This document shows positions 1,932 through 64,000 of a stretch of DNA of 64,000 bases, in pieces; the stretch's first letter is position 1, and every line of letters begins with the position of its first letter. This DNA comes from Terramyces sp. JEL0728 (Eukaryota > Chytridiomycota > Chytridiomycetes > Rhizophydiales > Terramycetaceae). The stretch lies in contig JADIIU010000047.1 of NCBI GenBank assembly GCA_027603945.1, forward strand, positions 1-64,000, written 5' to 3'. The position numbers and the translations under genes were made by a program. The notes beneath the pieces are model-generated. The model saw nothing but the letters and a program-made list of their open reading frames with translations. It did no database searches and was not told the DNA's origin.

Positions 1932-2670
1932 TTATTTTCGATATTTATTGGTAAAGTATAAACAAATCAAAATCCATAGAGTTACGATCACGGTGGATTT
2001 GAGAGAGAGCGGCTCAAAGAACGAATTTAGGAAAAGTGAAAGGACATTTCCAATAACTTGCAGTCTCTCCACATCATTTGGCTGATGCATACAGGCTTTC
2101 CATTCATTACACACAGTCTGCATGTGTGGAATTACCCGCGCAATATCTTCACATTTGTTATCCATATATAGTGCCATGCAGCTGTGGATTTTGGCATTGA
2201 ATTCTCATTAATAACGAATTACCTGTTGATTTCAAATTGATTTTGAGATAAATGTCATTGTAAAAGAATACAACGAAATGATAGATAATGAAACTAGTGG
2301 TTGAAATCAATAGAAATGTGAAAAATGGAAATTCGTGTGGGTAGGCTCGAGTTGAATTTGGTTCAGCACTGGCTAGTGAAAAGTTAGAAACGGAATCCAG
2401 TTTCTTTTCAAGTCTATGTAGCTGCAGCAGTTTTTCTAATTCCAGTTGTTTTTCCCTTTGTATCTGCGACTGATGCTGTCGTTCTTGTTCCTTTTTCTCT
2501 TTTTCTATTTGCTCCAGCTCCAATCTTTGCATTTGGATTCTTTCTTTCTCCCGCTTTTCTCTCTCCAAAATCTCTATTCTCTCTTTTTCTTGTCTTTCCT
2601 TTTCTTGCTTTATTTTTTGAAATTCAGAGACTGCAGTTAGCCAGGGACTGTCATGGTAATCGACTTCCAT
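1932..2670 (-). CDS. BRR6: Brr6/Brl1-like nuclear envelope protein
   Basis: Two exons (2670-2223, 2203-1932) joined over a 19-nt intron, 239 aa. The N-terminal third is an E/K/R/Q-rich charged helix or coiled coil (about residues 15-85). It is followed by a membrane segment, a lumenal domain with four conserved cysteines (SCM, NKC, TVC, ACM) and the FFEPLS motif, and a second membrane segment near the C terminus. This is the Brr6/Brl1 C-terminal domain, which forms disulfides in the perinuclear space and helps nuclear pore assembly in fungi with closed mitosis. The start is ATG 2670; the divergent SAP gene starts only 38 bp away. The long charged N terminus is unusual. An AATAAA is coded within the last residues. 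Confidence 0.86.
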
Positions 2671-2708
2671 AGTTTGGGTTTCAGAAAAAGATTCTGCAAA
2701 ACGATCTA

Positions 2709-4571
2709 ATGAAAAAGGGGCGATTACCAAAATCTCATTCAAACCCAATTCCAGAGGTAAAAAAAGAAGTTCGCAAGAGGTCTAATTCGGATTCAATTTC
2801 TTTGATCCCTAGTAACTTGCAGAGATGCCTGGTAAAGGAGTTGAAAGAATATTGTGGAATGTTGAACTTGGACGTCAATGGAAAGAAACAAGATCTGATT
2901 GACAAGATTATCAATGAGCGCATGAGGTTAATAAACAACGGTATGGATGGAGATCAAGAGCTCGAAACTGGCTCAAAAATACCTGAAGAGCATGTTGCAG
3001 ATTTGAAGTCTAGAAGCCGACGAACCCGAGGTGCTGCAATCAAACAAGTAAAAGACGACGGTGTAGACAAAGATGAACGCGTAATCAGTACTTCTGGACA
3101 AGATCCTGGACTAGATGGCCCTGGACAAAGAAACAACTTGGCCAAACCCAAGAGTTTAGCTCAAAAAATAACTAAAAGGAAACGAGGAAAAGGCGCCAAG
3201 AAAACTGTGAGGGATTCGGCGGATTCAATTGGAGTCCAACAAATTGCAGTGGTCGAGTCTGCAACAGAAACAGTTTCAAGAAGGAAAGGTAGAGAAACTA
3301 CGGCTATTTATCCTGAAACCAATACAGCTGACAGTATTCCAGTGGATGAAAACATATCTCAACCAATTCCGAGGGTTGAAAAGGAAAATGAAATCCTTGA
3401 AAAAAGGTCGAATTTAATATTCTCGGAAAATAGTGTAGATATTTCAAAGCTCCTTTCCACCGAAATGGATTTTAAAAGCATATCTGATCAAGGTAAAATG
3501 AGTGAATTAGAAGATCCGGATGATTCATTTGGTATTGGAATTCAGAGTACATTCAGTTACAAGTCGATCTATCCTTCTTTAAATGAAAGTGCTGCTGTTA
3601 ATCAACCAGCCCCCACCTTGAAATCAATTGGATCTGCAATCCATCAGAATATTATACAAAGCGGGAAAACCAGACTTGATTGCTTGACTCAACCCGGCCA
3701 TTCGCCTACTAATTCAACGAACCCTAGTGACCCTGTATTATGCAAAATACAGCAACTTCGTGACGCACTAAAAAAGACCACTGACAATACTATTTTGGAT
3801 TCATTCTATTGCGTATTGTGCGATAAAGAAATTAGGGCAGGAAAGCTTGGGGGAAAAGCCATAATCCAATACCTTTCTGTTTACCTCCAAGGTCCTACCG
3901 GTAAAACTTCAAAGTTGTTATTAAACCCCATAGTTCCTGAGGAGAAGAAGGATGAAACTTCAGTATGTACGAGCTGTTTTGTCAAGAATGATAGCATGGT
4001 TGATCAAAAACAAGAAACTAGCGAAATCTCAATAGCTTTGGAAGACTATTTACCTCAAAAAGAGAGTATTGCTGATGATACGACTATTTTATTGAAACCT
4101 CTTCCTCAAAATGACAATCACGATGGTTTGAATCTTGAATATGCTGTGGACGATGAAAGTAACTTCGCTACAAATCCAGGGGCTCCCACTAGACCTTCAA
4201 AGAAAAGACCATACAAGGCATATTCCCCTACCAAAGTGAATGCAGCAATTAGAAACTCTCCAGTTGCTCACACTTTACCACCAACAAAAAAATTTAAATC
4301 GGCAATACCAGTTTCGCCATCTCCAATGAAAAAGGTTGTCTATCCTGTAGTTTCGCCTTCGCCTGCAAAGAAGTTTGTGCCTTTCAAGAAACCAACAAAG
4401 TTCTCGTCAATCTTACAGTCTCCTTTGCGACAAAATATCCCAAAATACCTGCCAAAGGAAAATGAAAAAGTAAAAGAGCGCTTAGACAATCTCTTGGCAA
4501 CTGTTGTTCCTGGCAGCAAAGAGGAATGGGATCTGATTCATTCGGCCAGTCCAAGAATTCCTCGCGAATAG
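2709..4571 (+). CDS. SAP-domain nuclear protein, function unknown
   Basis: Single-exon gene, 620 aa. Residues about 38-70 form a SAP helix-turn-helix motif (LVKELKEYCGMLNLD, then KKQDLIDKI), a DNA-binding module for AT-rich chromatin. Basic stretches follow, then a CxxC pair near residue 370 (YCVLCDKEI) and another near 420 (VCTSCF), which may bind one zinc. The C-terminal quarter repeats S/T-P sites followed by basic residues (SPSPMKK, SPSPAKK), typical of CDK-target chromatin or spindle proteins. I do not recognise an orthologue. An AATAAA lies 8 bp after the stop. Confidence 0.8.
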   Translation: MKKGRLPKSHSNPIPEVKKEVRKRSNSDSISLIPSNLQRCLVKELKEYCGMLNLDVNGKKQDLIDKIINERMRLINNGMDGDQELETGSKIPEEHVADLKSRSRRTRGAAIKQVKDDGVDKDERVISTSGQDPGLDGPGQRNNLAKPKSLAQKITKRKRGKGAKKTVRDSADSIGVQQIAVVESATETVSRRKGRETTAIYPETNTADSIPVDENISQPIPRVEKENEILEKRSNLIFSENSVDISKLLSTEMDFKSISDQGKMSELEDPDDSFGIGIQSTFSYKSIYPSLNESAAVNQPAPTLKSIGSAIHQNIIQSGKTRLDCLTQPGHSPTNSTNPSDPVLCKIQQLRDALKKTTDNTILDSFYCVLCDKEIRAGKLGGKAIIQYLSVYLQGPTGKTSKLLLNPIVPEEKKDETSVCTSCFVKNDSMVDQKQETSEISIALEDYLPQKESIADDTTILLKPLPQNDNHDGLNLEYAVDDESNFATNPGAPTRPSKKRPYKAYSPTKVNAAIRNSPVAHTLPPTKKFKSAIPVSPSPMKKVVYPVVSPSPAKKFVPFKKPTKFSSILQSPLRQNIPKYLPKENEKVKERLDNLLATVVPGSKEEWDLIHSASPRIPRE

Positions 4572-4617
4572 TTTTTCAATAAAATGTATAAAAAATACCA
4601 AAATGATCTATATTTAC

Positions 4618-6557
4618 TTAATAGGAAAGCGTAGAGACTGCCCCGCTTGCAGCAACAATAACAGAGTTAGATCCAGGAGACCATTTCGGGTTGGAGCAAG
4701 TGGTTCCAGTTGCCGTTCCGTACTGGATTGCTTTCCATTCGTATGAGACGCCGTTGGACAAAGTAGTTGGGCAGTTCCAGACATTGCCCGTGGCCCAGGT
4801 GCACGATACAGCAGCGCAAGTACTCCAGCTGTTAAAAGCGCCGACCACGTATACGCTATCACCGAAACCAGAATTGTGAGTGACTTGGAAAGTAACCGAA
4901 ACTGCGGAATTTGGAGTGGCGGTTGGAGCAGCTGTTCCTGTAGAAGTAGGCACTGGAACATTCTTGAGGTAGCCATCATCGCCACCGTACAACACAACAA
5001 CTTTGTTCACATCAGTGGAGCGAATATTCAACTGGGTTGACCCTGTGCTATCAACTACATAAGAAATCTGATCTCCATTGATTGACGTGTCGTGCCAGAG
5101 TTTACAAGTGCCATTATTAGAATATGCATACACCATGTTGCAATACACACCTGCTGGTAAGCCGGTTGAAACTACATTGTTCATGTTCAAGTTTTCACTT
5201 CCACGCGCAGAGTTTACAGCAACAAAAGCCTTGCCAGGAACACTCCAATAAATTTGGTTAGATCCCAGCCCGTTGTTGGTGATTGCGCTTGGGGAAACAG
5301 AACCCATATGGTTACGAACACGAACAAGAGAGTATACGGCTGGAAGACGGTGCTGCTGGAACCACTTGGATGGGTTGGAACTAATTGGAAGGATGTAACC
5401 TGTGCTGTTGCTTGGTGCAGATACAGGAGATTCCCTCTTATCATCAGTGCCGCCGTTCCATAGAAAGTAGTAGTCGGAATGAACTTGAGCCAAACCATAT
5501 GGATAGAGAATATTGAAAGCCATTGCTTGATAATACAAGTTGATATCCAATCTAGATAATGGCAGGTAATTTTGTCCGTCGGTGTTTCTGACTTGGTCGT
5601 GGTTTTCTATATTAACAGTAATATACCAATAAAGGTAACAGAGACGGCTTCGCTGGCCAAAGAACGGGCTTGGTTTTGCAAGATACTTCCCAGTTGATCC
5701 ACTGAAGTATCAATATTTCGGAATGCTTTTCCAACAGGCATGGTGTATCCATTTACATTGATGACACGTCCAATTTGAGTGTAATCTTGAAAGTTGTTGC
5801 TGGATGGCATTGGATAAGCCTCCTGGCCAAAGTATGGGACATTTCCTTTGTAATTCTTGTTTAACAATGATTGGATTGCCCTCCAGTCGTTTGAAGGGAT
5901 GTAGGTAGCAAGATCAGTTCTGAATCCGACGGCTCCATAGGATAGCAGAGTGTTGAGGTAGGTTGCAATCTTTTGACGGACTGCTGTTTGTTCGGTGGCT
6001 ACATCTACCAATGTCCCTGCTCTGCAAAATTGCTGATTGTAATCGGTATATGGATGAGCACTGGTGCCAACGTTATCGTCACAGATGCTATCGTGGTAAT
6101 TGTCTTTGGTTAGGCCAGCGTCTGGCAGGCTTTCGTTAAGATCAGCGGTGGACCATCCTTGAGTTAATCCAAATCCCCAAGTGTCTTGTTTGTTCACATA
6201 TGCATTATGGTTGAGTACAACGTCAACAACAACATCTACACCAGCGTTTTTACATGTTTGCACCATAGCAGCAAATTCTTGTTCTGTACCAAGACGATTT
6301 CCGATTTTGTATGCTAAAGGTTGATATGCAAGGTACCATGGGAATGCTTGGCCATCAAATGCGTTTCCTGCGTGTGCTGCAACTGGAGAAGTTTGGACCC
6401 AAGCATATCCATTTGGGCCTAAAAATTTGACGCATTCATTCGCAATATCATTGAAATTCCACTGGAAAAGTTGGACTCCAACGTTTTTCTGGTTGCTATT
6501 CACTGTGAATTGAGCGTTTGCAGATTGAGATAGTAAGGCCAACAGCACTGTATTCAT
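4618..6557 (-). CDS. Secreted alpha-amylase GH13 with CBM20
   Basis: Exons 6557-5627 and 5606-4618, 20-nt intron gtatattactgttaatatag, 639 aa. It has a signal peptide (1-15), a (beta/alpha)8 domain starting VGVQLFQWNFNDIANEC, and GH13 catalytic residues Asp215 (GFRTDLATY), Glu246 (YFGQEAYP) and the Asp of FIENHDQVRN, which spans the splice junction. An all-beta domain C follows, then a C-terminal CBM20 starch-binding domain (VTFQVTHNSGFGDSVYVVG, NSW). The usual DAxKH stretch is DLATY here. The product would cut internal alpha-1,4 bonds of starch outside the cell. It is a tandem paralogue of the next amylase; only this copy has the intron. Confidence 0.95.
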
Positions 6558-7072
6558 CCTTGATCGTAGCCTTCCCTATTCTCGTTTTATATTACACGAG
6601 GGATCATGTGAGGAAAAAGGAAAAAGGAACGGACAAACCACATGACTAAACACTAAAAATCGCTCTTTTCGAACACAGCCGCGATTCAAATTCCAGCAAC
6701 TAACGTTATTATAACTAGCGATAGTTAGAAAGCCTCCGAAATATTTTTATCTTTTGTATTCCAATGTTCTTTGAAATCCAGATGAGGTCACATGAACTCC
6801 AGTTCCCGCTTCAAACCGCTTGTAACCACCTGATATCATCGGTTGCCTCGACTTTTTCGGGTGAACGACAATGAGCAGTCCTGCTGATTGATCATATCAA
6901 TTGGCTACTTGTTCACACCGTGCGCAGTAAATTTCTATTACAAGGCTTATGGATGCGAACATACCTAATTAGTACGGTGATGTTGGCTCAGTTAAGTGGA
7001 ATCTGTAACGCCTGCTGAGCATTATTGACTGATACCTGAAATGACCAAAGTTAAATACACGAAATTAATCTA
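6558..7072. other. Intergenic region between the two alpha-amylases
   Basis: About 515 bp. It contains a minus-strand TATA box at 6585-6591, 28-34 bp before the ATG of the downstream amylase. No gene, repeat or RNA structure is otherwise evident. Confidence 0.6.
6585..6591 (-). promoter_or_regulatory. TATA box of alpha-amylase 1
   Basis: TATAAAA on the minus strand, 28-34 bp before the ATG at 6557; the expected transcription start lies almost at the start codon. Confidence 0.6.
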
Positions 7073-9031
7073 TTAAAAAGCCATAGTGGTGGAGGTTAGC
7101 TGATCCGCGGCCAAAAATTTACGATTAGACTGACCAGACCATATAGGATTGGTGCACGTACGAGAGGATCCTGAGCCATATACTATTGGTTTCCATTCTT
7201 GTAGCGAATTGATAGGGACAGAGATGCTGCCGCAGTTCCATACATTCCCACTTGACCAGGTACAAGCAATTGCATTGCAAGAGTTCCAGTTGTTGAATGT
7301 CCCGACCACATAAACAGCATCTCCAAAAGCAGTCTGATGGACAACTCTGAAATTAACAGTTGCTTGGGTCGAAGGAGTTGGAGAAGTTGGAACAGCACCG
7401 GCAGTAGACAGGGATCCATCGAGCCCAGCATACAGCACGATGGTACTCGAAGGTTGAGCGTTCAAAATTACATTTCCGTTTGCACCAACTGTATAAGATT
7501 CTGATTGGCCACCAGCATAAGAAACACATTGGCCATTTTTTGCTGAGCCTTTCGCCATATTACAATAAACACCTTGGGCAAGACCGGTAAATACAGATTT
7601 CGTCATTGGGTTAGAGGCGGCATTGTTAATCGCCACGAAAGCTTTCCCGGGGTTGGTCCAATAGATCTGGTTGGAACCAAAACCGTTATCTTTAATTGGA
7701 GTAGCTGGGGTATCCCCAATAAAGTTTCTAACTTTGATCAGTGGATAAACACTTGTCCAGCGGTGCTGGCAGTACCATGCATCGGGACAAATACCATTTA
7801 CAATGCCAACAGGCTTGATCATACCATCGTCGTCGGAAGGAGCAGAAACTGGGCTTTCGCGATGAAAATCATCTCCACCATTCCAAGTAAATTTGTAGCC
7901 TGAATGAACGGTGGTCAATCCAAATGGATACAAGATGTTGAATGCAATGGCTTGGTTGTAGTTACTACCAGATAGTCTAGAAAGCGGCAGGAATGCTTGT
8001 CCATCTTGGTTTCGTTCTTGATCATGGTTTTCTATAAAAGTACCAGAATGAGCTGGATCGGCAAAGGCAGCAGCAGCAGTGACAGAGGAATACGCTAAAT
8101 CAGCAGTCATACCCTGGTAGTTTCTGAAGGATTTGCCTACATTTTGAGTGTAGCCTTCAACATTGTAAACCCTTCCGAGACTCCTGTAGTCTTTGTTTGT
8201 AACAGTAGTCAAGTCGTTGGTATCAGGTAAAGAGTATACTTCTTGAACAAAGAAAGGGACGTTGCCTTTGTAATTTAGATTCAATTTGAGCTGAATCGCG
8301 GCCCAGTCAGCAGGATCAATAAAAGTAGCCAAGTCAGTTCTGAATCCCACAACGCCGTATGAAAGCAACAGATTCAAATAGGAAGCAATGGCTGACTGAA
8401 CATTTGAGTTGTCTGTGGCAACATCGAGTAATTGAACATTAGGATCTTCGCCAGCAGCCCTGCAGTTCCACTGGTTCCAGGTCATCGTTTGAGTGGGGAC
8501 AGTTCTTGAGGAATAATTTACAGGGCCATTGCAAACACTGTCATGGAATGAACCACTGTTAAAATTAGAGCTTGGAAAACTCTCTTGACTGGTTGCAGAG
8601 GACCAGGTTTGATCGATGCCAATAGTGCTGCCACTGTGTCCAGCGTAGGAAAAGTGATTCAGAACAACATCTACCACCACATCTACACCACTGTCCCTGC
8701 AAACCCTTGTCATATTTGCAAATTGCCCCAATGTTCCCAATCTATTACCAATTTGGTACGCAACAGGCTGATAAGCCAAGTACCAAGGAAAAGTTTGACC
8801 ATCGAACGAGCTGGCGGCGTGGGCAGCTACAGGAGAAGTCTGCACCCATCCATAACCATTTGGCCCTAAAAAGTCTATACACTCCTGCTTGATATCATCA
8901 AACGGGTACTGAAATAGTTGAACTCCAACATATTTATCATTGAGCGTGTAGTGGGCTGTTACTAAGGTTGATAGTAATGCAGAAATCATTGAACTTGCAA
9001 AACCATCGATCTTTTTAAATCCTTTGTCCAT
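7073..9031 (-). CDS. Secreted alpha-amylase GH13 with CBM20, paralogue 2
   Basis: Uninterrupted frame, 652 aa from ATG 9031. An internal ATG at 8989 would give a shorter signal peptide and 638 aa; both starts put a hydrophobic stretch (ISALLSTLVTA) at the N terminus. The domain order matches the neighbour: GH13 barrel (VGVQLFQYPFDDIKQEC), Asp in GFRTDLATF, Glu in FFVQEVYSLP, Asp in FIENHDQERN, domain C, then CBM20 (VNFRVVHQTAFGDAVYVVG, NNW). Asp/Leu/Ala/Thr again replaces the usual DAxKH. It lies directly upstream of amylase 1 on the same strand, so a tandem duplication is likely, with intron gain or loss afterwards. Confidence 0.95.
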   Translation of the reverse strand: MDKGFKKIDGFASSMISALLSTLVTAHYTLNDKYVGVQLFQYPFDDIKQECIDFLGPNGYGWVQTSPVAAHAASSFDGQTFPWYLAYQPVAYQIGNRLGTLGQFANMTRVCRDSGVDVVVDVVLNHFSYAGHSGSTIGIDQTWSSATSQESFPSSNFNSGSFHDSVCNGPVNYSSRTVPTQTMTWNQWNCRAAGEDPNVQLLDVATDNSNVQSAIASYLNLLLSYGVVGFRTDLATFIDPADWAAIQLKLNLNYKGNVPFFVQEVYSLPDTNDLTTVTNKDYRSLGRVYNVEGYTQNVGKSFRNYQGMTADLAYSSVTAAAAFADPAHSGTFIENHDQERNQDGQAFLPLSRLSGSNYNQAIAFNILYPFGLTTVHSGYKFTWNGGDDFHRESPVSAPSDDDGMIKPVGIVNGICPDAWYCQHRWTSVYPLIKVRNFIGDTPATPIKDNGFGSNQIYWTNPGKAFVAINNAASNPMTKSVFTGLAQGVYCNMAKGSAKNGQCVSYAGGQSESYTVGANGNVILNAQPSSTIVLYAGLDGSLSTAGAVPTSPTPSTQATVNFRVVHQTAFGDAVYVVGTFNNWNSCNAIACTWSSGNVWNCGSISVPINSLQEWKPIVYGSGSSRTCTNPIWSGQSNRKFLAADQLTSTTMAF

Positions 9032-9283: not shown

Positions 9284-10761
9284 CTATTTATTAGACAGTA
9301 GCAGATAGTCTTGAATCATCTTTTTTGCAACTTGGGGCTGATTCTCTGGTGCATAATGGCCTGCATTTAACAGTTCTACCCTCACGAGGTTGTCGAATTC
9401 AGTGACATAGCCAACAACTACGCCATTTTCTTTCCATATCTTTCGTTCACTGTTCTTGTACTCCAGATTATATTCCCAATTTATATTTTCAATGTATTCA
9501 GTGCTGCCCATTATCCCGTCGCGTAAATCGAATTGGCCTTGGTACAGTAACACTTTAATCTGCTTTAGTACGTATGGCAGGTAAATTGCAGACGATTGCA
9601 TGATATCAAGCTCTATGTTTTGGTACAAATTAACATCTTGGCCAAATATTGCATCTCCAACGTTCAAAGAATGCCTGATTGATTGCATGATTTTAGCAAC
9701 GGGATGGACATATCGAGTGGACCCTTTTCGGACATCATACCAGTTAATTCCGCCAGTGTGATTATTAAACAGATCATACATCCGCAGTCGAGCTTGCAAC
9801 GCTTCTTTCCATTTGTATTGGCACATAAAGCAAATAGATATATTGGCCAATCGGTTCATTTCTAAAGCAACCGTGTTGGATACTAGTCCAAGGGCTAGTG
9901 CTTGATCAGCATGGGCTTTGATTTGTGTTTTTGGATCAGTAAACCCATCCCCAATCGCTATCCCAGCCAATGGGAAAGAACGGTAGCCACGACGCTCGTT
10001 TAGTTTCAACATCCGGTACGCCAATGACGGTATATACTTTCCAGCATAAGACTCTCCTGTCAAATACAGAGTCGTATTTGCTTCGGGAAAGATCTTGTAA
10101 AATCTGCCGAGAAAGATGATTAAATCATGAGATATTGCAGCTTGGTTTTGTGGATATCCTTCATTAAACAACGGTCTATCCTGGATTTCTTCCTTGAAGC
10201 ATTCGCTTGTGGTATTTACGTTTTCAAATGCTGGCAAGATTTCTTTCTTTGGTTTTCCAACTGTTTTGTTTCCCAAATGACTAAACCCTGCCCCAAGCGG
10301 ATTGTCAATAAATAGCATTGATGAATTCGAATTCCATGCATCAAAGTTTTTAATAAAGTGCTTTTCCGAGGTGATTTTGATTGGGCCAACCTCGTAAAAC
10401 AATCCAATCATTGAGCTTGATCCAGGACCTCCTTGCAACCATATAATTAATGGTGGCGATACTACATCTTTATTTTCGCATGGAAAGTACCAAAAGAATG
10501 TTTCTGCTTGGTAATTAGTCGGTCCATCCCCGCCGTGAGATATGTTTCTAATTAGATATATTGCTACCTTATGGGAACGAATCCTGCATATGATTTTATC
10601 GGTGCTTGACCACTTTGCCAAGGTAACTTACCAACCAGGTACTGATCTTTCAGCTCCCTCTGATTTCTCCACTTGTATCTGATGTCTGAACATGAATTAA
10701 TGTACTGTAGGCAGAAAATCAGGAGCAGTGCTGCAAATATCAAATTAGTCCACTTTTGCAT
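9284..10761 (-). CDS. Serine carboxypeptidase, peptidase family S10
   Basis: Exons 10761-10568 and 10547-9284 across a 20-nt intron (gtagcaatatatctaattag), 485 aa. It has a signal peptide (about 1-23), the SYAGFVPIR substrate-binding start of S10 enzymes, the oxyanion segment LQGGPGSSS, nucleophile Ser in [10 protein letters not shown], Asp in YQGQFDLRD and His in [11 protein letters not shown]. It is closest in feel to vitellogenic-like/lysosomal carboxypeptidases. It should trim C-terminal residues from peptides in the vacuole or outside the cell. The gene ends AAT AAA TAG, so the poly(A) signal is coded in the last two codons. Its start codon is 50 bp from the divergent Utp18 start. Confidence 0.95.
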
Positions 10762-10811: not shown

Positions 10812-12322
10812 ATGCCTCCAAAACACCTTGGCAAGCATAAAGTAAACAAAAAATCCAAGAAAATCCCTGAAAAGCTCCCCATCAATGGTATGGAAACAGA
10901 CGATGAGGAATTGGAATTAGAAAACTTGGTTTTCGGAACAAACAAAAAGTCGAATGTCAGCAAAGTCCTTGAAATGGCGGCAGCACAGGATACGCTTGAA
11001 GAAAAGAAGGACGTATATGACTTTTTTATCGATTCAAATGTACAGGAAAAAGTAGAGCCATCCCAAGAAACTGAACAGAATGCTCCTGCTTGGATTGATG
11101 ACGACCAACAGGTATTTTCCGTAAATATCGAAAAGAATAGACTGAAAAAACTTCGAAACGAATTCAAAGAAACTGAAATTACTGGCAAAGAATACGAACA
11201 GCGACTAAGAGTTCAATTCGAAAAGATTAATCCTGTTCCGGAATGGGCAAAAAGTACCGATAGCACCACTAGCATTCTGGCTACTACAAAACCATTGCAG
11301 GCTAAGCGGGTTGTAGTATTGAACCCGGATAAATTTGATTTAATTAGAGTTTCAGATGCCAACAAGAATGCCTATTCAGATGTAAGCGCACCTTAACATT
11401 AGTGTGTAATTCAATCACTGGGTTTCCATCCAAATTCGCCAGTGATGTTCACTGCCGGGCTTGACAAGACTTTGAGATTGTTCCATATAGATGGGAAAGA
11501 TAACTTATTTTTCAAAAGCTTTGTCTTGAAAGATTTGCCAATTGTTTCTGCAGGCTTTTCAGCCGATGGATTGCAACTGGTTTTAACTGGCAGAAGAAAG
11601 TTTTTCTATGTTTTGGATTTGGACACTGGAAATGTAGACAGAATTAAAGGCATCAGAGGTACATCCAGCTAATATCAGGCCGTGAAGAAAAAACACTAGA
11701 GCATTTATATATATCTCCAAATAATGATTATATTGGTATAATGGGGTTGGAGGGAGAAATTATCCTGCTGTCGATGAAAACAAAACAGTGGGTGTCGACT
11801 CTAAAAATGAACAGCCATGGTGTATCGATGGCCTTTTCTAATGACGGCTATTTATGGTCGTTGAGTCAGGACGGGACGGTGTATCGGTGGGATCTCAAAA
11901 CCAAAGAGTGTGTCCACAAATTTACAGATGAAGGGTGTGTCAAAGCCACTATAATTGCAATATCTCCCGATGACAAGTGGATTGCCGTGGGCTCGTCAGT
12001 TGGTGTTGTGAATTTGTATGACACGAAATCAGCCCTCGCGAGTGATATTCCAAAACCAGAAAAGGCAATCATGAATCTTACAACGGCAGTTACCAATATT
12101 GCATTCCATCCGTCAGCAGATTTAATGATGATTGCGAGCCATTATCTCAAAGACTCATTGAAATTAGTTCATATTCCCACCAGACGAGTAGTAGCAAACT
12201 GGCCAACCTCGAAAACTCCTATTGGCTACGCGTATTCTGCCAGCTTTTCCCCAAACGGAAGATACGTCGCAATCGGAAACGACAAAGGCAAAGTGTTACT
12301 TTATCGTCTTAAAGACTTTTAA
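10812..12322 (+). CDS. UTP18: U3 snoRNP protein Utp18 (WD40)
   Basis: Exons 10812-11381, 11403-11658 and 11679-12322; introns of 21 and 20 nt; 489 aa. The N terminus is basic then acidic, followed by the family signature AWIDDDQQVFSVNI, then RLKKLRNEF and GKEYEQRLRVQFEK, and a WD40 propeller beginning FTAGLDKTLRLF with the typical GRRKFFYVLDL blade. Utp18 sits in the UtpB part of the small-subunit processome and is needed for 18S rRNA maturation in the nucleolus. The ATG at 10812 gives MPPKHLGK. Confidence 0.91.
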
Positions 12323-12392: not shown

Positions 12393-13540
12393 TTAAGCCC
12401 AGACCTGAAAAATCAATAATATAGTTACCTTGAGCATGCTATCCCAACTACCAGTGCACATAGCCATACCATCTGAAGAAACACCAAGACATGATACACG
12501 ATTTTCGTGTGCTGTTAAAACTCCCACTCTTTCAGCTTTGAGGGTATCCCAAACATTACAGTTAAAATCATCATAGCCAGCAAATAGTAAGCGTCCAGAA
12601 ATTGAAAAGGCAACTGAGGTGATACCGCAAAGAATATTATCGTGTGTAAATTGGTTAAGTTCGCGATCTGCTCTAAGATCAAATAAACGGCAAGAAGCGT
12701 CATCAGATCCAGTCCCGAATGCTTCGCCATTAGGGAAAAATCTACCATTAGAGGAATTCAAAGTAAACTCGAGATAATCCAAATTGATTAAACCCGGTGG
12801 ATTACTTACGTGACTGCGTTTATATCTGATTCGTGGCCTGTGAAAGTTTGTACGCATCTTCCAGTACGAATATCCCAGATTTTGGCTGTTGCGTCACAAG
12901 CTGCTGAAACAAACACGTTCTTATCTGGACTTAGAGATAAGGACATGACATCCCCAGTATGATCGGTAAATTCTAAAGTTTTCATACCAGCATCAATATC
13001 CCACAACATACAAGACATATCGCCAGATGAGGAAATGATTTGACGGTCCGAAATAAATCGACAGCAGGACAAGTACCCAGTGTGAGCAGTGAGCTCTCTA
13101 GCTACTTTTACGCTTCCTTCTTTTGTTTTTAGATTGTAAATTGAGCAAATGTTATCTAGACCGCCGCAAGCTACATAATTCCCGGAAGGAGCGTAAGCGC
13201 AGGTCATGACCCAGGAAGAACGTAGAGGAATTGCATGTACTTTGTTTGTTGAAAATGCATCCCATACAATCAACTTACCGTCTTGGGAAGCAGAGACCAA
13301 GTGTCTCTTGTCAGACGCCCAATGCATAGCGTAGATTTTTGCTAAATGTCCTTTCAGTGTTCTTCTGACTTTCATCATTATACGCGGTAACGGTTCTATA
13401 TCGGCTGCTACTTGTTTAACTAATATTAATATTGTTATACGTGTTGTGTCGGCTAATGCATCTCGTTTCTGTTTAATTTTTTCCTTCAGGGCTTCTGCTT
13501 CTCTTCTGACATTAGCGATTCTTTCAGCGATATCACCCAT
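12393..13540 (-). CDS. Heterotrimeric G-protein beta subunit
   Basis: Four exons (13540-13441, 13419-12810, 12741-12429, 12404-12393); introns of 21, 68 and 24 nt; 344 aa. The N-terminal helix [16 protein letters not shown] pairs with G-gamma. The propeller starts [16 protein letters not shown] and ends [12 protein letters not shown], the canonical Gbeta ends. Only four codons follow the last intron. Splicing restores [18 protein letters not shown] across the 68-nt intron and [12 protein letters not shown] across the first. Gbeta-gamma relays signals from seven-helix receptors, which fits the many seven-helix proteins in this window. It converges with Utp18, 70 bp between stops. Confidence 0.97.
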
Positions 13541-27622: not shown

Positions 27623-28257
<635 letters not shown>

Positions 28258-31439: not shown

Positions 31440-31571
31440 TAGAAATTTGAAAAGAAATCAGGAGCCAGCGTCATATTTTGAAACAGAGTGCGCCAAGTGG
31501 ATTGTTGGAGCCCCCAATTAATTACTGCACAAGCTGCAAGCCTGAGAAACTAGAGCTGCAAGAAAGTTATA

Positions 31572-32665: not shown

Positions 32666-32866
32666 TAGTGAATCCGCTTGATTACTATATTTATAACACC
32701 TGTCTTCCGTGCCGATGAGTAGTACAAAAGTGTGAAAATTGGATGGAGGCACCAATCAAATTGCTCTACGGCCGTATACTTTAGTCTTGTGCGTCGTCAA
32801 AGGATATTCAAGGATAGTCAAAGGATTATGTTATTTATTTATCAATTCTAATCAAATACAAATGAG

Positions 32867-38512: not shown

Positions 38513-38664
38513 ATAAACTATTTATTTTCTAGTAGAATTCCCAGCCACGTATTCTCGTCTAATCCAACCCGTTAAGTGAGCTGATAATGTCAATCACATC
38601 ATCATCAAATGAAGATTCGCCGTACCCTGTCGAATCCCCATGCACTCTAATCCGAACATCTAGA

Positions 38665-47658: not shown

Positions 47659-48738
<1,080 letters not shown>

Positions 48739-53793: not shown

Positions 53794-53856
53794 TTTTTGT
53801 TTTTCACAAGTCAATCAGCGACTGTGATCAAGACAATCAAACATAAATACAACTTT

Positions 53857-55536
53857 TTATTCCTTCAAACCTGCCACCCAGTACATGTTGAATCTTCCCT
53901 TTCCTCTTATTTCGTAAATATGTGGTTCGCTGAATTCAAACAGATTCTTTTCTTTCACGAGCTCAAAGGTGGATTCGGAAATATTGATTTTCATTGGTTT
54001 GGATAGGGTTTCTATACGCGAAGCAGTGTTAACTGCATCTCCCAATATGCACCACCGCGGATTATTTGTTCCCATAAATCCAGCTACCACCGGACCTGAA
54101 TGAATGCCTATTCTAATATGGATAGAGTCATTGGCACTAGTTTTGAATTCCTTTGCCATTTCAATAATTTCCAGCGCGAAATTCAGACAGTTTTCTGCGT
54201 GGTTGTCGGTTCTGGTTGGGCATCCACTTATTCCAAGGAAAGCATCTCCAATAGTTTCCACCTTGCAGATTCCCCACTTTCTCCCAATTTCCTCATATTT
54301 AGTCCACAGGGCATCCAAAGTCTTCAAGACATCGCGAGTTGAACTCTTGCTTGTGATTGAATTAAAGTTGGTGATGTCGCTAAAGAAAATCGTGACGGAT
54401 TTGTAATCCTTGGCCTCTGGAAAATTCCCTTCTTTAATTTCTGGCAGTAGTTCTGATGGAAATACTTTTTCCAGGATTGCTTCGGTGTTGTTGAATTCTT
54501 TCTCCATTGTAGCAACAATACCAGAGATATTTTGGACTGTTTCGCTTTGAGTCTGCTCTATAGTAGCATTAACTAATACTATAGTCAAGAACGCCTTGGC
54601 AATTATATCTGCAAAGCAATATAACATTTCCCCAGTGGGAAATTCAATCACTCGGAACTTTACCAGAAACCATACAACTGGAACTGGATTAGATTATAGT
54701 TACAGATTGTCCAGCCAACCATGGTACTAGCATGGGCAATCTGGAGCGTTTGTTTATCCAACACACACAGAGTTCCGCCTGCAATAGCTTTGGTAAACAT
54801 GAAGTGCAATCCCTGCATGATCAATACAAAGTAAATGCATGACATCAGCAAACTAATTGTTGAAATCGATCCGGTAGTTGTGGATGCCAAAAACCCAGAA
54901 ATCAGCATCAAATAGTCATACACAAATATTCTAAAGGTAAAGGTATTTTCCTTGGTAAATTCACCGACCAATAGAATTAAATTTGGGCAGGTTGCTATCC
55001 ATTCCAAATACCTCGCTACATCAACCGGATATTGATTTCCATCTTTAAACTGTGGAGTCAATCTCCAGGCCATCAGCAAATACGAGCAGAGAGTAATGAG
55101 ATTTACCAAGAGTAACACCACTGCTAGGGACTTTTTGTCTGGAGAGTTTGCAGTGAGATTAGCAAAGAATGCAAAGGTGCCAGATATTACGAATGCAGAG
55201 GCATTATTCTTGTACCAGCCGTCAGAATTTCCTCTGTCGAACAAATAAAGATCGTTTTGATTCATATACGAATAAATAGCCAAGACCCCTGACAGTGCAA
55301 GCCATACTGTTAGCGCCGTGTTACCATACTATTGAAGAAATAACCATTTGGGTAATAGTGGTTGATTGAATTCGAGATTTCTCTGATTCATTTTTAACTT
55401 TGAGTGTCCAAAGTGAGGTCATAGAGAGAGGAATATAACAATGAGTAATTCCGGGATAAGAACCCTCGCGGATACAAATAGATCCATTGTCGGATCTTCT
55501 AAGCGAGATTTCAGCATTTACATTTAGATTGTTCAT
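53857..55536 (-). CDS. Rhodopsin-guanylyl cyclase fusion (CyclOp/RhGC type)
   Basis: Microbial rhodopsin helices precede a class III cyclase. Helix C reads ARYLEWIATCPNLILLV: Glu at the bacteriorhodopsin Asp85 site, Thr-Cys at 89-90, Leu at the Asp96 site. A 20-nt intron (54684-54703) restores helix F GWTIFPVVWFLV. Helix G FADIIAKAF keeps Asp212 and the retinal Lys216. A coiled linker joins the cyclase: metal Asp in FFSDITNF and ETIGDAF, with Glu in KVETIGD and Cys in RWCILGD, the guanine-selecting pair. Light-driven cGMP synthesis is expected. The first junction (near 55284-55340) is unresolved: a 16-nt intron would keep frame. Upstream exons are possible. Confidence 0.92.
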
Positions 55537-56232: not shown

Positions 56233-58500
56233 ATGTCGATAACAGGCCCCGCGCCGCAAGCCTGGTTTAAAAACAGGCAAAATCGTTTTCAAGAATCTTC
56301 ATCTACAATGAGTCAAACCGCAAGAATTAACACTGCACTCGAATCGGTCAACCGTCCAAACAGAGTCGCTGAATGGCCAAAGACCGCCGGAAAGAATTCC
56401 TATATCTCGGATATCTATGGATCCAACGTTTTCACCCTAAAGAAACTCCAAACCACTCTCCCAAAATCTGTATATGCTCGTTTCATTGAACAACTGAAAG
56501 GCCACAAACCACTAGATAGACCAACTGCAGATGCAATCGCACACGCTGTTAGGGTCTGGGCGATGGACAACGGTGCTACTCACTTTACCCACTGGTTCCA
56601 ACCTCAAACTGGAACTACTGCTGAAAAGCACGACTCTTTCCTCACCCTCAAGACCGTCATTCACAATGGGATCGAAGAAGTTACTGCTATCGACGCATTT
56701 TCTGGATCCCAGCTTTTGCAATCTGAACCTGATGCCTCCTCGTTCCCTAACGGTGGTATTAGATCTACATTCGAAGCTCGTGGATACACTATCTGGGATA
56801 CATCCTCCCCAATGTTCATCCGCAATGGACCACACGGAACTGCTGTCCTGTATGTCCCATCCGTCTTTATTTCCTACAATGGTGATGCTTTGGACGAAAA
56901 GACTATTTTGCTCAGATCTGCCGACTGTCTCTCCACTGCTGCAGTTAGACTGCTAAACTTGATCGGCGACAAGGAAACCAAACGTGTTATTGCTACTTTA
57001 GGTACTGAACAAGAATTCTTCTTGATTGACCGTGGAATTTACAACATGCGTCCAGATTTGAAGATTTGCGGACGTACTTTGCTTGGAAATGTTCCACCAA
57101 AGCATCAGCAACTCGACGATCACTATTTCGGCCAAATCCCATCCAGAGTTCTTGCTACTCTTTCGGAAACCGAGCTTGAATTGTACAAATTGGGTGTTCC
57201 AGTAAAAACCCGTCACAACGAAGTCGCTCCAAACCAATTCGAAATGGCTCCAATTTTCGAATCCGACTCTGTCGCAGTTGACCACAACTTGATTTTGATG
57301 GAAACTCTTCACCAAGTTGCTCACCGTCACAGACTTAAGGTTCTGTACCATGAAAAACCATTCAAGGGTGTTAACGGAAGTGGTAAGCACTGCAACTGGT
57401 CCATGCAAACCGATTCTGGAGACAATTTGCTCGAACCAACCGTCAAGCCAGAATCCAACTTGCGTTTCTTGCTATTCCTAGTTGCTACTTTAGAAGCTGT
57501 TCACAAACACGGTGGTCTTTTGCGTGCCTCTATTGCTTCCGCCTCTAACGAGCACCGTCTTGGCGCTAACGAAGCTCCACCAGGTATTGTTTCTGCTTTC
57601 TTGGGTGAACACTTGACTGAAGTTTTGGATTCAATTGAAGAATCCCGTGAAGTTAAGAACCACTCCCAATCCCATTTGCAAACCGTTAAGCTTGGAGGAA
57701 CTGTTTTGGATTTGAAGGTCAACGCGCTCCCACAAATTGCAAGAGATTTGACTGACCGTAACAGAACCTCTCCATTCGCCTTCACTGGCAACAAGTTTGA
57801 ATTCCGTGCTGTTGGTTCCAAGTCATCCCCATCTTTCCCAACCGTATTGTTGAACGCTGCTGTTGCTGAAGCCATCAACGCTGTCACTGATGCTCTTATC
57901 AAGCAAAAGGGATCCAAGGCTGAACCATCCCAAGAAGATGTTTTGGTTGTTGTCAAGCAATTCATTAAATCCAGCAAGAACATCAGATTCGAAGGGAACG
58001 GATACTCTGACGAATGGGTTGTTGAAGCTGAAAAGCGCGGCCTTCCAAACATCAAATCTTGCCCAGTTGCATTCAGACGTTTAATTGACCCTGTCCACAT
58101 GAAATTGTTGACCTCCCTTAATATCATGACTGAAACCGAAATCAAATCTAGATTCCACATTGTCATGGAAAAGTATGCCAAAGATATTATTATCGAAGCC
58201 AATTCATTGAAATCCATGATCTTGACTGGTGTCTTGCCAGCTGCTTACAAATTCCGCAAGGAATTGTTGGACTCTTTGGTTGCTCAAAAATCAATTGGTC
58301 TTGCCACCGACTCTTCCCCTGAAAAGCTTGCTTTAGACAAGGTCCTCGCTATCACCAGCACACTCCAAAACACATCGGATAAATTGGTTGCTGCTATCAC
58401 CAAGATCAACTCTATTGAAGATGAAATCGCACAAGCAGAATATGCCAACACTGATATCGTTGGAATTATGGAAGAAGTCCGTGTAATTGCTGACTCGTAA
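56233..58500 (+). CDS. glnN: Glutamine synthetase type III
   Basis: Single exon, 755 aa from ATG 56233 (an internal ATG at 56308 is possible). GSIII length (about 700-750) and landmarks fit: DGATHFTHWFQP-like NGATHFTHWFQP, TLGTEQEFFLID, KTRHNEVAPNQFEMAPIF, KGVNGSGKHCNWSM, ANEAPPGIVSAFLG and NRTSPFAFTGNKFEFRAVGS. It forms glutamine from glutamate, ammonia and ATP. Fungi normally use the short type II enzyme, so GSIII is unusual. Codons are strongly C-ending (TCC, ACC, CGT), unlike most neighbours, as expected for high expression. Confidence 0.97.
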   Translation: MSITGPAPQAWFKNRQNRFQESSSTMSQTARINTALESVNRPNRVAEWPKTAGKNSYISDIYGSNVFTLKKLQTTLPKSVYARFIEQLKGHKPLDRPTADAIAHAVRVWAMDNGATHFTHWFQPQTGTTAEKHDSFLTLKTVIHNGIEEVTAIDAFSGSQLLQSEPDASSFPNGGIRSTFEARGYTIWDTSSPMFIRNGPHGTAVLYVPSVFISYNGDALDEKTILLRSADCLSTAAVRLLNLIGDKETKRVIATLGTEQEFFLIDRGIYNMRPDLKICGRTLLGNVPPKHQQLDDHYFGQIPSRVLATLSETELELYKLGVPVKTRHNEVAPNQFEMAPIFESDSVAVDHNLILMETLHQVAHRHRLKVLYHEKPFKGVNGSGKHCNWSMQTDSGDNLLEPTVKPESNLRFLLFLVATLEAVHKHGGLLRASIASASNEHRLGANEAPPGIVSAFLGEHLTEVLDSIEESREVKNHSQSHLQTVKLGGTVLDLKVNALPQIARDLTDRNRTSPFAFTGNKFEFRAVGSKSSPSFPTVLLNAAVAEAINAVTDALIKQKGSKAEPSQEDVLVVVKQFIKSSKNIRFEGNGYSDEWVVEAEKRGLPNIKSCPVAFRRLIDPVHMKLLTSLNIMTETEIKSRFHIVMEKYAKDIIIEANSLKSMILTGVLPAAYKFRKELLDSLVAQKSIGLATDSSPEKLALDKVLAITSTLQNTSDKLVAAITKINSIEDEIAQAEYANTDIVGIMEEVRVIADS

Positions 58501-58660
58501 GATTTTTTTAACATTAGACTCGAACAAATTACCCCAGATACACACTGGCCATATCCAAAGTATGCCGAACTTTTGTTCTAAACGAATACTCTTCCTTAAT
58601 AAATTTTGTATGAAACAAGTGCTGTGTTGTCCTTTTTGCTTTTTTGCCCAACAAATCAAC

Positions 58661-59725
58661 ATGTCCACCAGTCCAATACTACCGATTCTGTCGTACTGCG
58701 CTGCTTCTATTATGATGACATTGACCAACAAATTAGTCCTTTCCGGATTCGATTTCAAACTTAATTTCCTCTTTTTATTTGTTCAAGTAACGTTAATTTA
58801 ATATAGAATGCCGGATGTTTGATATTATTAATTGCGATAACAAAGCTGGGACTAGTCACTCCATACAGAGCATTTAATCAGAAAGACGCACTGGTTTTCC
58901 TAAGGGTTGCCGTTGCGCTAGTGTTTATGATTTACACTGGCTCAAAAGCACTGCAATACTTGTCGGTTCCAGTGTTCACCATTTTCAAAAACCTTACAAT
59001 TATTTTGACCGCATACATGGAGCGGTGGTTGCTAAGTGGTTCTGCCGTTTCAACGCCAATCTTTGTATCGTTTATGTTGATGGTCTTGTCCTCGGTAGTT
59101 GCTGGATATGCAGATATTGTAGGCCAAAAACAAGTCAAAGAATCAGCCGGCTTTGCAGTATCATATGGTTGGATGGCATTAAACTGCATCACTACAACCA
59201 CGTTCACGCTGCTGTTGAAGGGATCTATCAAGAAAGTAAACTTCAAAGAGTACGACACAATGTACTTTAATAGTATCCGGATTTAACTCTAGATTTACTT
59301 TCGCTGCCTATCCTTTTTGCGTTCTTTTTACTCAATGAATGGAGCGAAGCTACAAAAACTTATGATCGCTACTTTGGAAGTACCAGCGAAGAATATGCAA
59401 GCGAGTTCAATACTCTGATGGTTGGAATGGTTATTTCTTCTGTTTGCACGTTTGCGATTTCATTCGCGTCATCTTGGTGTGTGCGCATTACCGGCGCAAC
59501 CACTTACTCCATGGTCGGGGCTCTCAACAAGCTTCCTATTGCGGTATTTGGAATGGTATTCTTTGACGCAGTCATATCATTCGCCAGTGTATCTGGTATT
59601 TTAATTGGTAGTTTCAGATTAATTTAGCTTTTGTTGCTGGAGCATTGTATAGTTGGGCTAAATCGCAACCAACAAGACCAACTTTACCAGTATATAACCC
59701 AGTTAAAGATAAAGACGAAGAATAA
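58661..59725 (+). CDS. VRG4: GDP-mannose/nucleotide-sugar transporter, Vrg4-like
   Basis: Four exons with three 20-nt introns (58787-58806, 59273-59292, 59608-59627), 334 aa. Ten hydrophobic helices are seen, with MTLTNKLVLSGFDFKLNF near the N terminus and the diagnostic GALNKLPIAVFGMVFF (GALNK motif for GDP-mannose) late in the protein. It brings GDP-mannose into the Golgi for glycoprotein and wall mannan synthesis. The upstream ATG at 58610 would add a Cys-rich segment not typical of the family. AATAAA begins inside the stop codon. Confidence 0.92.
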
Positions 59726-59749
59726 AGACTAATTCTATATTTACTTGTT

Positions 59750-60250: not shown

Positions 60251-60335
60251 GGAAATTTTCAAACTTTACAGCCAGTTCCCTAATTGGCTGGCGTGTGACC
60301 GACTGCAATGCAAAAGGGTAATTCTGCGATTTTAT

Positions 60336-62071: not shown

Positions 62072-62616
62072 TTACTCTGGAAATTCCTTGTTGATGCCAA
62101 AAATCCTCACCTTATGCATCGCGGGCAATTTCGCAATCAAAACAACCACCAGACTGGTGAGATTGATCATGAACATGAATAGATTGTAATGTGTGAAATG
62201 AGTGGACAGCAAAAACCTATGTTTAGAATCAAATACAATAATATTGGAACTCCAGTTAGATATTTTTTGGTCTAAGTTAGCAAATTCTGTACTGGGGTAA
62301 ATTGTTCTCCACCATCGATTTGCTCCCACATTGTTAATCCCTGCAGGTCGTTCTGTCCAACAATAAATGGAGTGCCAGACATCCAATGAAACATTATAAA
62401 AGTAACCTGTATAAACCAATCTTTACAATATTAAATGTGAGGTTGGTTAACGTCCACGAAACTTCTGTGCTGATTCCAGGAATTGAAGAAACGGCCGCTC
62501 TAACTAATAAAATCATGATCCCTAGTACAATCCACGATCCTTCCGTTTAATTTAAAGTCACCTCTAGTGTTCAGCCAACTTGTATTTGGATTTGCGTCGA
62601 TATCAAAGTGGGTCAT
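62072..62616 (-). CDS. ORM1: ORMDL-family sphingolipid regulator
   Basis: Five exons; introns of 22 (62540-62561), 20 (62407-62426), 21 (62272-62292) and 20 nt (62217-62236); 153 aa. The restored protein reads NPNTSWLNTRGSWIVL, SSIPGISTEVSWTLTNLT, FIMFHWMSGTPF, LTMWEQIDGGEQFTP, LLSTHFTHYNLF and LPAMHKVRIFGIN, nearly textbook ORMDL. These ER membrane proteins restrain serine palmitoyltransferase. The full length and motif order are a strong check on the short-intron rule. Confidence 0.97.
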
Positions 62617-62911
62617 GAAAAAGAATGGAGAAACCCGAAACGGGAAAATCGATGGATTTATGCGGTGATAAATTGAAAAAGAAGTGGTACAGTATCAGCG
62701 TTTAGCTGGACAATCAGCAATTATCTTTGACTGCCTCGCGAAATCAAAGAAACTAGAACAGTAATAATCAAGAAAAGTTCACTAGAAACAAGGCAGAGTT
62801 GCACGGATATGGAACCTCCTCGCCAAACTATAAGTCTCATTGCCTTGAGCACTACCAGTGCATGATTCTCCCAGATTCATTAAGGGAAGCTCCAACACCA
62901 TTAATACTTTA

Positions 62912-64000
62912 TTACCACCCAAAGACTGCGTACTTGAAGTACTCAAAGTAATCCATAATAATTTCCTTCCATGTTGGCAACGGAGCAATTTTGAAATCAC
63001 TTGGGATGGGTACGCCAACTGAAGATCCAAGTTCGTGTAACATTTCAACATAAGGATTAGAGTATCCTTCATGATTGCGCATAATAGATACGCCAGAGCT
63101 TTCGGCTGGTTTTAGAATTAAATAGCATCTATACCCAGAATTACCGCCGCCATGGGCAATGGTTTTATCAGCGCTGTGGTAGAAGAATCCTAAACCCATT
63201 TCTCCTTCCTTAGTGTTGGTGTTGTAAGTTTTCATAATTTGATCTGCGAGAACCGGACTTACCAGAGCACCATATTCATGGTTTATTGCCCTCATCACTT
63301 GAATCCCAAACAAACTTAAATCTGCGGCTGTAGTCCATAAGCCAGCAGCAGCCTTTTCAGGATGAACAGCGTATGGCTTAATTCCATAAAAGTACATCCA
63401 AGGATGATACACGTTCAAGTTTCCGTTGGATAAATGAGGTCCATCGGATAAATCAGTTTCAAAAGTAGAGTTTTTCATTCCAAATGGCTTGATAATTTGC
63501 TCATACATAATTTGGTGGAATGGCTTCTTTGTAGCAGTTTCCATTACAAATTGAACCAAAGTAGTTCCTAAATTAAGTATAATTTACCGCCGCCTGAATA
63601 TTTGAATTCGCCTTGAGGATACTGAATCGTCACCTTATCAGTATTGGCAGGTTTGTGCCCGAGCAATATTTGTTGAATTGTTGGGAGTGGTTTGCCTTTC
63701 TTGTAGCCTGAAAATCCATGTACAGTCAGTCCCGCTGTGTGGGATAGCAGCAACCTAAGAGTGACTTTAGGTCTGGTTTGGTACAAGTCTTTGTTGAATT
63801 CCAGCTCAAATCCAGTTTCCGCGAGATAGCTATGGATGTCAGTGTCTAAATCCAAGAGTCCCTGGTCCACAAGTCTAAGAACTGCAAACATTGTAACGGG
63901 TTTTGAAATTGAAGCAGCTTGGAACCTAGTTTCAACGGTTGTTTTTGGTTTTGGAAAGAATGGCAGAAATGGGATACGACTATACCCAATTGCGCCTTGG
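62912..64000 (-). CDS. Beta-lactamase-fold serine hydrolase (5' end beyond window)
   Basis: The open frame enters from the right edge and has one 20-nt intron, gtaaattatacttaatttag (63568-63587). It shows the class C/LACTB motifs: SxxK in ASISKPVT, LLSHTAGLTVHGF, YSG in FKYSGGGTTLVQFV (joined by the splice) and HGG in IAHGGGNSGYR. These are serine acyl-enzymes; in eukaryotes they act as esterases or peptidases, not antibiotic resistance. AATAAA begins inside the stop codon. Confidence 0.88.

Follow-up and report, generated by a model that had tools for sequence, protein, structure and literature searches.

Ultra-short introns in the window

The 64-kb stretch of DNA analyzed here (the window; contig C47 of the draft assembly, JADIIU010000047.1, positions 1 to 64,000) comes from the chytrid fungus Terramyces sp. 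JEL0728 (Chytridiomycota, Rhizophydiales, Terramycetaceae). Its genes, which encode among others UBC1, V-ATPase subunit D, IQGAP, carnitine acetyltransferase, and a rhodopsin-guanylyl cyclase fusion, are interrupted by predicted introns of 19-23 nucleotides (nt) that very probably belong to the U2-type spliceosomal class and have been compressed to a fixed module. The draft comprises 15,016,339 bases in 231 contigs, and the window was analyzed together with the initial parts of contigs C1-C7, which add 200 kb (264 kb in total). The evidence for introns is the genomic sequence alone, removal being judged from coding conservation. We ran a codon-plus-motif gene finder, whose prior on intron length was flat from 12 to 150 nt, in two rounds; for the strict set, the same gene finder was run with intron lengths restricted to 14-30 nt, and duplicates were dropped.

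Under the strict settings, before deduplication, 49 introns were found in the window (13 of 19 nt, 18 of 20 nt, 12 of 21 nt, four of 22 nt, and two of 23 nt) and 147 in the other 200 kb. Retrained motifs gave 51 introns in the window, and relaxed settings gave 62 or 70, so that the 76 cases of the original prediction are plausible in number but were not reproduced. Of the span that it assigned to them (1932-63587), the end coincides with the intron at 63568-63587, whereas nothing was called at 1932 and the first strict intron lies at 5607-5626. All three introns quoted there are present, in UBC1 (27824-27842), NIF3 (26937-26955), and the ATG15-like lipase (29089-29107). The NIF3 example, a 19-nt intron in the 5' part of the gene on the plus strand, lies outside the automatic lists, being absent from both the strict list and the printed relaxed list, but its removal reads VIVSYHPP.

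Homology across intron junctions

Among the 49 strict junctions of the window, 29 are located inside matches to Pfam domains or homologous proteins (three of them in a weak match to PF08449). Residue-by-residue examination of the alignments demonstrated 14 ungapped junctions and one with a one-residue gap beside it. When introns were retained singly (18 introns in seven genes), the protein was truncated in 17 cases and gained seven residues in one, the 21-nt intron of the G-protein beta gene (13420-13440, minus strand; junction within the PF25391 match).

Both 19-nt introns of UBC1 (27824-27842 and 27954-27972, plus strand) leave ungapped junctions in the alignment with E2-24 kDa (1tte, chain 1tte). 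The gene for V-ATPase subunit D has three 19-nt introns on the plus strand: the junction at 14388-14406 is ungapped against a solved homologue, that at 14152-14170, within the PF01813 match, has the one-residue gap beside it, and the intron at 14636-14654 is a gene-model prediction. In the carnitine acetyltransferase gene (51660-53793, minus strand), the junctions of all five introns, 52203-52224 (22 nt), 52613-52631 (19 nt), 52688-52707 (20 nt), 53467-53486 (20 nt), and 53543-53561 (19 nt), are ungapped against the solved enzyme 1nm8 and the proteins of Boothiomyces, Gorgonomyces, and Spizellomyces, 1nm8 having a one-residue gap four residues away from the junction at 53467-53486. Against Globomyces four of the five are ungapped, the Globomyces model being gapped at 52203-52224.

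The IQGAP gene on the plus strand contains eight of these introns. The first (44128-44149, 22 nt) has its junction within the PF00307 match and outside both homologue alignments. The next five are at 44280-44300 (21 nt), 44527-44548 (22 nt), 44899-44919 (21 nt), 45062-45081 (20 nt), and 45695-45715 (21 nt); all five junctions are ungapped against a metagenome protein (P0242), and the last four, which are those covered, also against Boothiomyces macroporosus (P0241). In the 3' part of the gene, the intron at 46902-46922 (21 nt) comes from the gene model, and the junction at 47205-47224 (20 nt) is within the PF03836 match. The Boothiomyces proteins, which are 92% identical to those encoded here, are ungapped at all nine junctions that they cover.

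Further junctions lie within Pfam matches in genes for a serine carboxypeptidase of family S10 (10548-10567, 20 nt, minus strand; PF00450), a diphthamide synthase/L-PSP protein (15588-15607, 20 nt, minus strand; PF01042), NIF3 (27440-27458, 19 nt, plus strand; PF01784), and a serine hydrolase (63568-63587, 20 nt, minus strand; PF00144). On the plus strand, the same holds for the ATG15-like lipase, where two 19-nt introns at 29000-29018 and 29089-29107 interrupt the PF01764 match (the latter at GHSLGG) and two others, 28832-28852 (21 nt) and 29375-29394 (20 nt), are in the gene model; for a Tim17-family gene with introns at 40352-40371 (20 nt) and 40492-40513 (22 nt) within PF02466; and for a UAA-family transporter, whose three 20-nt introns (58787-58806, 59273-59292, and 59608-59627) are those in the weak PF08449 match.

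The rhodopsin-guanylyl cyclase fusion (53857-55265, minus strand) has a 20-nt intron at 54684-54703 within the PF01036 match, and 10 of 13 homologues cross its junction ungapped; of the other three, one has an insert, and two are incomplete or aberrant at this place. The spliced products of this gene and of the carnitine acetyltransferase gene together correspond to one public protein, HDV01_005475 (51660-55265), in which the two genes are fused, and they differ from it only at three avoided tiny introns and the fused join. The public model splices the 22-, 19-, and 20-nt introns at 52203-52224, 52613-52631, and 52688-52707, skips those at 53467-53486 and 53543-53561, and is wrong at 54684-54703, so that conserved coding sequence is lost around three tiny introns. 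As judged from this one protein, public JEL0728 gene models splice some tiny introns and mishandle others, and because the model fails at tiny introns, errors may enter comparative studies that use such proteomes.

The rhodopsin-cyclase of Globomyces sp. JEL0801 (A1 / P0023) contains extra residues at most three residues from the position of intron 54684-54703. The insert, read by hand as CKIKSYLTP (nine residues), back-translates to a 27-nt intron with GT, CTAAC, and CCAG; a fit of this type was also obtained for 49 of 5000 random peptides (about 1%) and is post hoc support only. This suggests a candidate retained intron of 27 nt, in which case shrinkage may have begun deeper in Rhizophydiales. 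In an observation of its own, the fusion, a CyclOp light sensor, has its best match in Entophlyctis helioformis (50% identical).

Length distribution of the intron class

The existence of ultra-short predicted introns as a class in Terramyces sp. JEL0728 was confirmed by two tests that do not depend on length settings. We counted GT..YTAAY..YAG segments in the 264 kb irrespective of any gene model and observed 87 of 19 nt, 100 of 20 nt, 52 of 21 nt, and 40 of 22 nt, against a background of 20-44 per length at the other lengths between 15 and 60 nt. In a deduplicated frame test, which makes no use of homology, the coding frame shifted by the segment length in 52 of the 59 segments that were 19, 20, or 22 nt long, including all 25 of the 20-nt segments, which shift as their removal requires. 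The corresponding numbers were 30 of 112 for control segments of 25-60 nt (Fisher p = 4e-15 for 52/59 versus 30/112) and 7 of 22 for those of 10-17 nt.

The gene finder produced a consistent picture, although candidates of 17-24 nt served to train its motif matrices, so that its runs and the decoy control are not fully length-independent. With the flat prior, 125 of 158 introns in the first round and 129 of 178 in the second were 19-23 nt long, and neither round gave any at 12-18 or 24-29 nt, the remainder of both lying scattered between 30 and 144 nt. In the decoy control, which covered lengths to 60 nt, the real motif yielded 163 of 185 introns at 19-22 nt, compared with 0-8 for each of 23 base-permuted decoy motifs; at 23-60 nt it yielded 22, and the decoys 9-57. 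After deduplication, the strict set for the 264 kb comprises 194 introns. Their lengths are 19-23 nt in 191 cases (52 of 19 nt, 80 of 20 nt, 36 of 21 nt, 17 of 22 nt, and six of 23 nt), the other three measuring 26, 28, and 30 nt.

These data support 19-23 nt introns as the sole class detected in the 264 kb, with the flat prior reaching 150 nt and the decoys 60 nt. A narrow main class of at most about 25 nt is the mark of ultra-short intron populations in nucleomorphs, heterotrichs, and mikrocytids, and it is present here. The proposal that such introns form the main class in a fungus is supported, since no other class was detected and the organism is a fungus; the range proposed for them, 18-24 nt, narrows to 19-23 nt. 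Its tails, two introns of 18 nt and two of 24 nt, have no counterpart among the 194 strict introns, and the relaxed runs contained a single intron each of 18 and 25 nt but none of 24 nt. The class also extends beyond the window, as had been predicted: 145 unique introns were found in the 200 kb of the C1-C7 starts, or 0.73 per kb, versus 0.77 per kb in the window. Extrapolation from the contig starts and the window to the whole draft gives 11,034 introns, a total on which the duplicate stretches contained in the draft bear.

Intron structure and tandem introns

The introns have GT-AG ends with a 5' consensus, and decoys of other dinucleotides fail, the GT and YAG ends as such being imposed by the search itself. 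GT is followed by A at +3 (91%), A at +4 (56%), T at +5 (48%; G, 15%), and T at +6 (68%). Counted over 191 introns, +5 is G in 28 and T in 93, and the commonest intron start, GTAATT, occurs in 30. The branch motif is YTAAY, complementary to U2 GUAGUA and at a nearly fixed distance from the 3' end, which is YAG with T in 72%. The position of the predicted branch A is nearly fixed, as in other ultra-short populations: A14 in 44 of 52 19-mers, A14 or A15 in 73 of 80 20-mers, A15 in 30 of 36 21-mers, and A16 in 9 of 17 22-mers. From the branch A to the intron end there are mostly 5-6 nt, and from the 5' site to the branch point only 13-15 nt. Intron length thus changes in steps of a single nucleotide, within two short spacers.

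A total of 356,087 bases gave 375 motif hits, which included four close pairs of tiny introns; the statistics are weak, a hand estimate of the expectation being about 2.6 at a gap of at most 12 nt and 0.8 at a gap of at most 3 nt. In two candidate tandems, L012 (7088-7130, plus strand) and L022 (8909-8950, minus strand), the introns are 0 and 3 nt apart, respectively, and an open frame requires the removal of both segments; these pairs could be explained by recursive splicing, or they could be single introns of 43 and 42 nt. At the 5' end of the Isy1 gene (L051; C35:112080-112480, minus strand), three consensus tiny introns appear to fall within 65 nt and to leave exons of 1 nt and 3 nt. Only two of 13 splice combinations keep the frame open there, and both retain the 1-nt exon. 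If real, candidate tandem introns 0, 1, and 3 nt apart would exclude exon definition at these places.

Spliceosome components

The U2 small nuclear RNA (snRNA) was identified with a score of 140 bits, and its GTAGTA branch-binding element is present. All four spliceosome proteins probed, LUC7, Slu7, Isy1, and the Cwc25 N-terminal family, were matched. LUC7 reads through a 20-nt intron, and later LUC7, Slu7, and Isy1 matches contain stops, as tiny introns would produce. The Isy1 match starts at profile position 12; the three tandem tiny introns split the 5' end of the gene, and the first exon is uncertain. Loss of Slu7, which we had expected from the short distance between the branch and the 3' end on the basis of yeast work, was dropped, as Slu7 is present.

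Cwc25 starts with MGGGDLNLKKSWHP in both L046 (C30) and L047 (C33), and its GGG plug is intact. The plug is missing in Stentor (PMC9505925), and its loss is what the steric-avoidance model for Stentor invokes, together with an unconserved Isy1 N-terminus. The plug retained in JEL0728 argues that a lariat of about 14-16 nt does not require the loss conjectured for Stentor. The Cwc25 open frame is identical at the two loci, which are haplotypes or draft duplications.

Neither U1 nor U6 was found with covariance models, patterns, or BLAST, searches that had no eukaryotic positive control and in which diverged, interrupted, and missing-from-draft genes are indistinguishable. Neither the Rfam model nor a gapped pattern combining the 5' end with the loop gave a hit for U1, whose absence is not claimed; for U6, BLAST with the human sequence was empty, again with no positive control. 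An interrupted U6 gene is possible. Two U6 candidates, L001 (C199) and L002 (C111), scored 27 bits, below the cut-off, and were rejected, since by our reading they sit where a duplicated coding stretch ends and have no AGC triad. Pattern matches to the ACAGAGA/AGC region and the 3' half of U6 were judged to be due to chance. The gene stretch at L001 and L002 is near-identical and reflects haplotypes or draft duplications.

Mechanism and alternative explanations

Existence, lengths, spacing, frame restoration, and contig spread of the introns can be read from the sequence, as can the U2 GTAGTA element and the four proteins, and every sequence criterion applied agrees with the spliceosomal nature originally proposed. 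The module very probably shared by these U2-type introns consists of a GTA-type 5' site (most commonly GTAATT), a YTAAY motif whose A usually occupies position 14, 15, or 16, and YAG mostly 5-6 nt further on. Such a composition would account for the lengths arithmetically (19 = 14+5; 20 = 14+6 or 15+5; 21 = 15+6; 22 = 16+6). A largely standard spliceosome would remove the tiny introns by intron definition, with recognition that may be sequential rather than simultaneous and that involves shortened helices. The 5' site would probably be handed over before or during docking of the branch helix, because the 5' and branch sites are too close for the U1/U2 or B-complex helices to sit apart on them simultaneously. 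The catalytic core could stay unchanged, as the 5' site and the branch A meet there anyway and length should pose no problem.

Several observations weigh against this interpretation. We infer removal from coding conservation; 20 of the 49 window junctions have gene-model support only; and 7 of the 59 candidates in the frame test did not show the predicted shift. The U1 and U6 snRNAs escaped detection, as described above. In the second flat-prior round, 49 of 178 introns were longer and scattered over 30-144 nt; these are read as noise, because the real-motif count at 23-60 nt (22) is inside the decoy range of 9-57. Finally, in the human B complex the U6/5' splice site and U2/branch helices are described as being separated by 15 nm or about 21 nt, and with the structure unaltered the minimum from the 5' site to the branch point is estimated at about 52 intron nt (PMC6692369), a need under which the order of assembly is unexplained. 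Because 13-15 nt cannot hold helices about 15 nm apart, one may tentatively consider that the chytrid assembles its spliceosome by a path absent from known structures, with a compact B complex or late handover of the 5' site, and perhaps with altered U1/U6 reading GUAAUU; strict intron definition would then leave tandem introns with 0-3 nt exons removable. We regard this as possible but well short of probable.

An alteration of the early spliceosome, in which U1 and/or U6 are rewired to the GUAAUU 5' site, is somewhat more doubtful still. It would fit the scarcity of G at +5 (28 of 191 introns, compared with 93 having T) and the fact that U1 and U6 escape standard models when U2 is easily found. 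However, non-detection in a draft, with no positive controls, is weak evidence, LUC7 is retained, and the commonest intron of Stentor also starts with GUAAUU, yet its U1 (ACUUACCU) and the ACAGAGA of its U6 are reported to be canonical (PMC9505925), so that loss of +5 G need not imply rewired snRNAs. That the gene finder missed a substantial class of ordinary longer introns existing beside the tiny ones is improbable. The 49 flat-prior introns of 30-144 nt could be taken as its trace, the composites of 43 nt (L012) and 42 nt (L022) could be single introns, and the lengths examined reach only 150 nt; on the other hand, the long predictions are thinly spread, their number at 23-60 nt does not leave the decoy range, and frame shifts at these lengths are near random (30 of 112).

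Removal by a non-spliceosomal route, such as a tRNA-type endonuclease, self-splicing, or ciliate-like excision at the DNA level, would dispose of the conflict between the intron geometry and the human B complex and is in line with the failure to find U1 and U6. It is nevertheless very unlikely, given that the branch motif fits U2 GTAGTA, that both end motifs (5' and 3') are of the spliceosomal type, that LUC7, Slu7, Isy1, and Cwc25 are retained, and that the assembled genomic DNA contains the segments. Least credible of all, to the point of being negligible, is the explanation that sequencing or assembly indels broke the frames and were mistaken for introns, which a draft of 231 contigs and a check made on sequence only might invite. 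Indels would lack GT, a branch motif, and YAG at fixed spacing, and they would neither peak at 19-22 nt nor vanish under permuted motifs; moreover, the nine junctions covered by Boothiomyces proteins contain no gaps.

Comparison with known short-intron systems

The precedents named in the original prediction, chlorarachniophyte nucleomorphs and Stentor, were right, and the mikrocytid rhizarians, with introns of 16-17 nt (PMC10245619), should be added to them. Chlorarachniophyte nucleomorphs contain more than 800 introns of 18-21 nt in about 300 genes (PMC10245619) and resemble JEL0728 in the near-equal length range, narrow spread, and large number of introns. They are, however, relict endosymbiont nuclei, whereas here a whole fungal nuclear genome is concerned, with about 11,000 introns by extrapolation. 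The 15-16 nt introns of Stentor coeruleus (PMC9505925) share with those described here a near-fixed branch position, a 5-nt tail after the branch A, GUAAUU as the commonest start, and a free-living host. They differ in the lariat, 10-11 nt in Stentor versus about 14-16 nt in the chytrid, and in having no strong branch consensus.

In mikrocytids, obligate parasites with a strongly reduced spliceosome, 224 introns have been described (PMC10245619). These too are uniform, very short, and spliceosomal, but JEL0728 would have thousands of them by extrapolation and possesses each of the four spliceosome proteins probed. Paramecium introns of about 25 nt (PMC5014332) and Trichomonas introns from 23 nt (PMC12316389) are likewise ultra-short and GT-AG, with a longer minimum and in other lineages. 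Within fungi or their nearest relatives, Microsporidia also have short introns, but few of them, together with a reduced spliceosome, and some species are intronless (PMC10245619). A survey of 644 fungal genomes describes introns with a mean of 63 bp in Cryptococcus as relatively short (PMC8476143). Among the matches listed, no title or abstract mentions a fungus with introns of 19-23 nt as its main class, subscription literature being thinly covered, and no intron lengths are given in the passages covered of a sanchytrid genome paper from 2021 and a Rhizophydium paper from 2026.

Introns this short were previously described from a relict nucleus, parasites, and heterotrich ciliates, and here they are the sole detected class in a fungus. 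Terramyces sp. JEL0728 is a soil saprotroph and is not known to be a parasite. If the interpretation is true, such introns can arise without genome reduction via parasitism or endosymbiosis, and the phenomenon adjoins tractable fungal systems. Introns of 19-22 nt challenge current views of how the spliceosome fits on its target, and the approximately 52 nt that the human B complex is estimated to need, roughly four times the space available here, sharpen this open question (PMC6692369).

Other introns and genes of the window

The remaining introns of the window were predicted by gene models. On the plus strand, a WD-repeat gene, which we take to be UTP18-like, has introns at 11382-11402 (21 nt) and 11659-11678 (20 nt), the model being accompanied by WD-repeat matches. 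Single introns were assigned to the predicted genes 20953-23115 (21064-21084, 21 nt; gene model only), 23222-26067 (24424-24446, 23 nt; weak branch motif, gene model only), and 43214-43765 (43240-43260, 21 nt), and to the 3' end of the predicted gene 56308-58581, presumably glutamine synthetase type III (58497-58517, 21 nt). On the minus strand, the predicted gene 38559-39985 contains two 19-nt introns (38660-38678 and 39573-39591), and another WD-repeat gene, presumably CIAO1-like, contains one of 21 nt (42635-42655).

Four adjoining genes for multi-pass membrane proteins, paralogous as judged by eye, occupy positions 30164-35704 of the minus strand, and each contains tiny introns: 30679-30698 (20 nt), 30943-30965 (23 nt), 32322-32341 (20 nt), 33713-33733 (21 nt), 34957-34975 (19 nt), and 35364-35383 (20 nt). 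A starch-degradation cluster near the beginning of the window includes a GH14 beta-amylase (3-1349, minus strand) adjoining two CBM20 alpha-amylases (4618-9031, minus strand); the 20-nt intron at 5607-5626 on the minus strand belongs to an alpha-amylase/CBM20 gene, and its junction, supported by the gene model, is outside the Pfam matches. The window also encodes an ATP:guanido phosphotransferase of the arginine/creatine kinase family (49837-51120, minus strand), a family rare in fungi.

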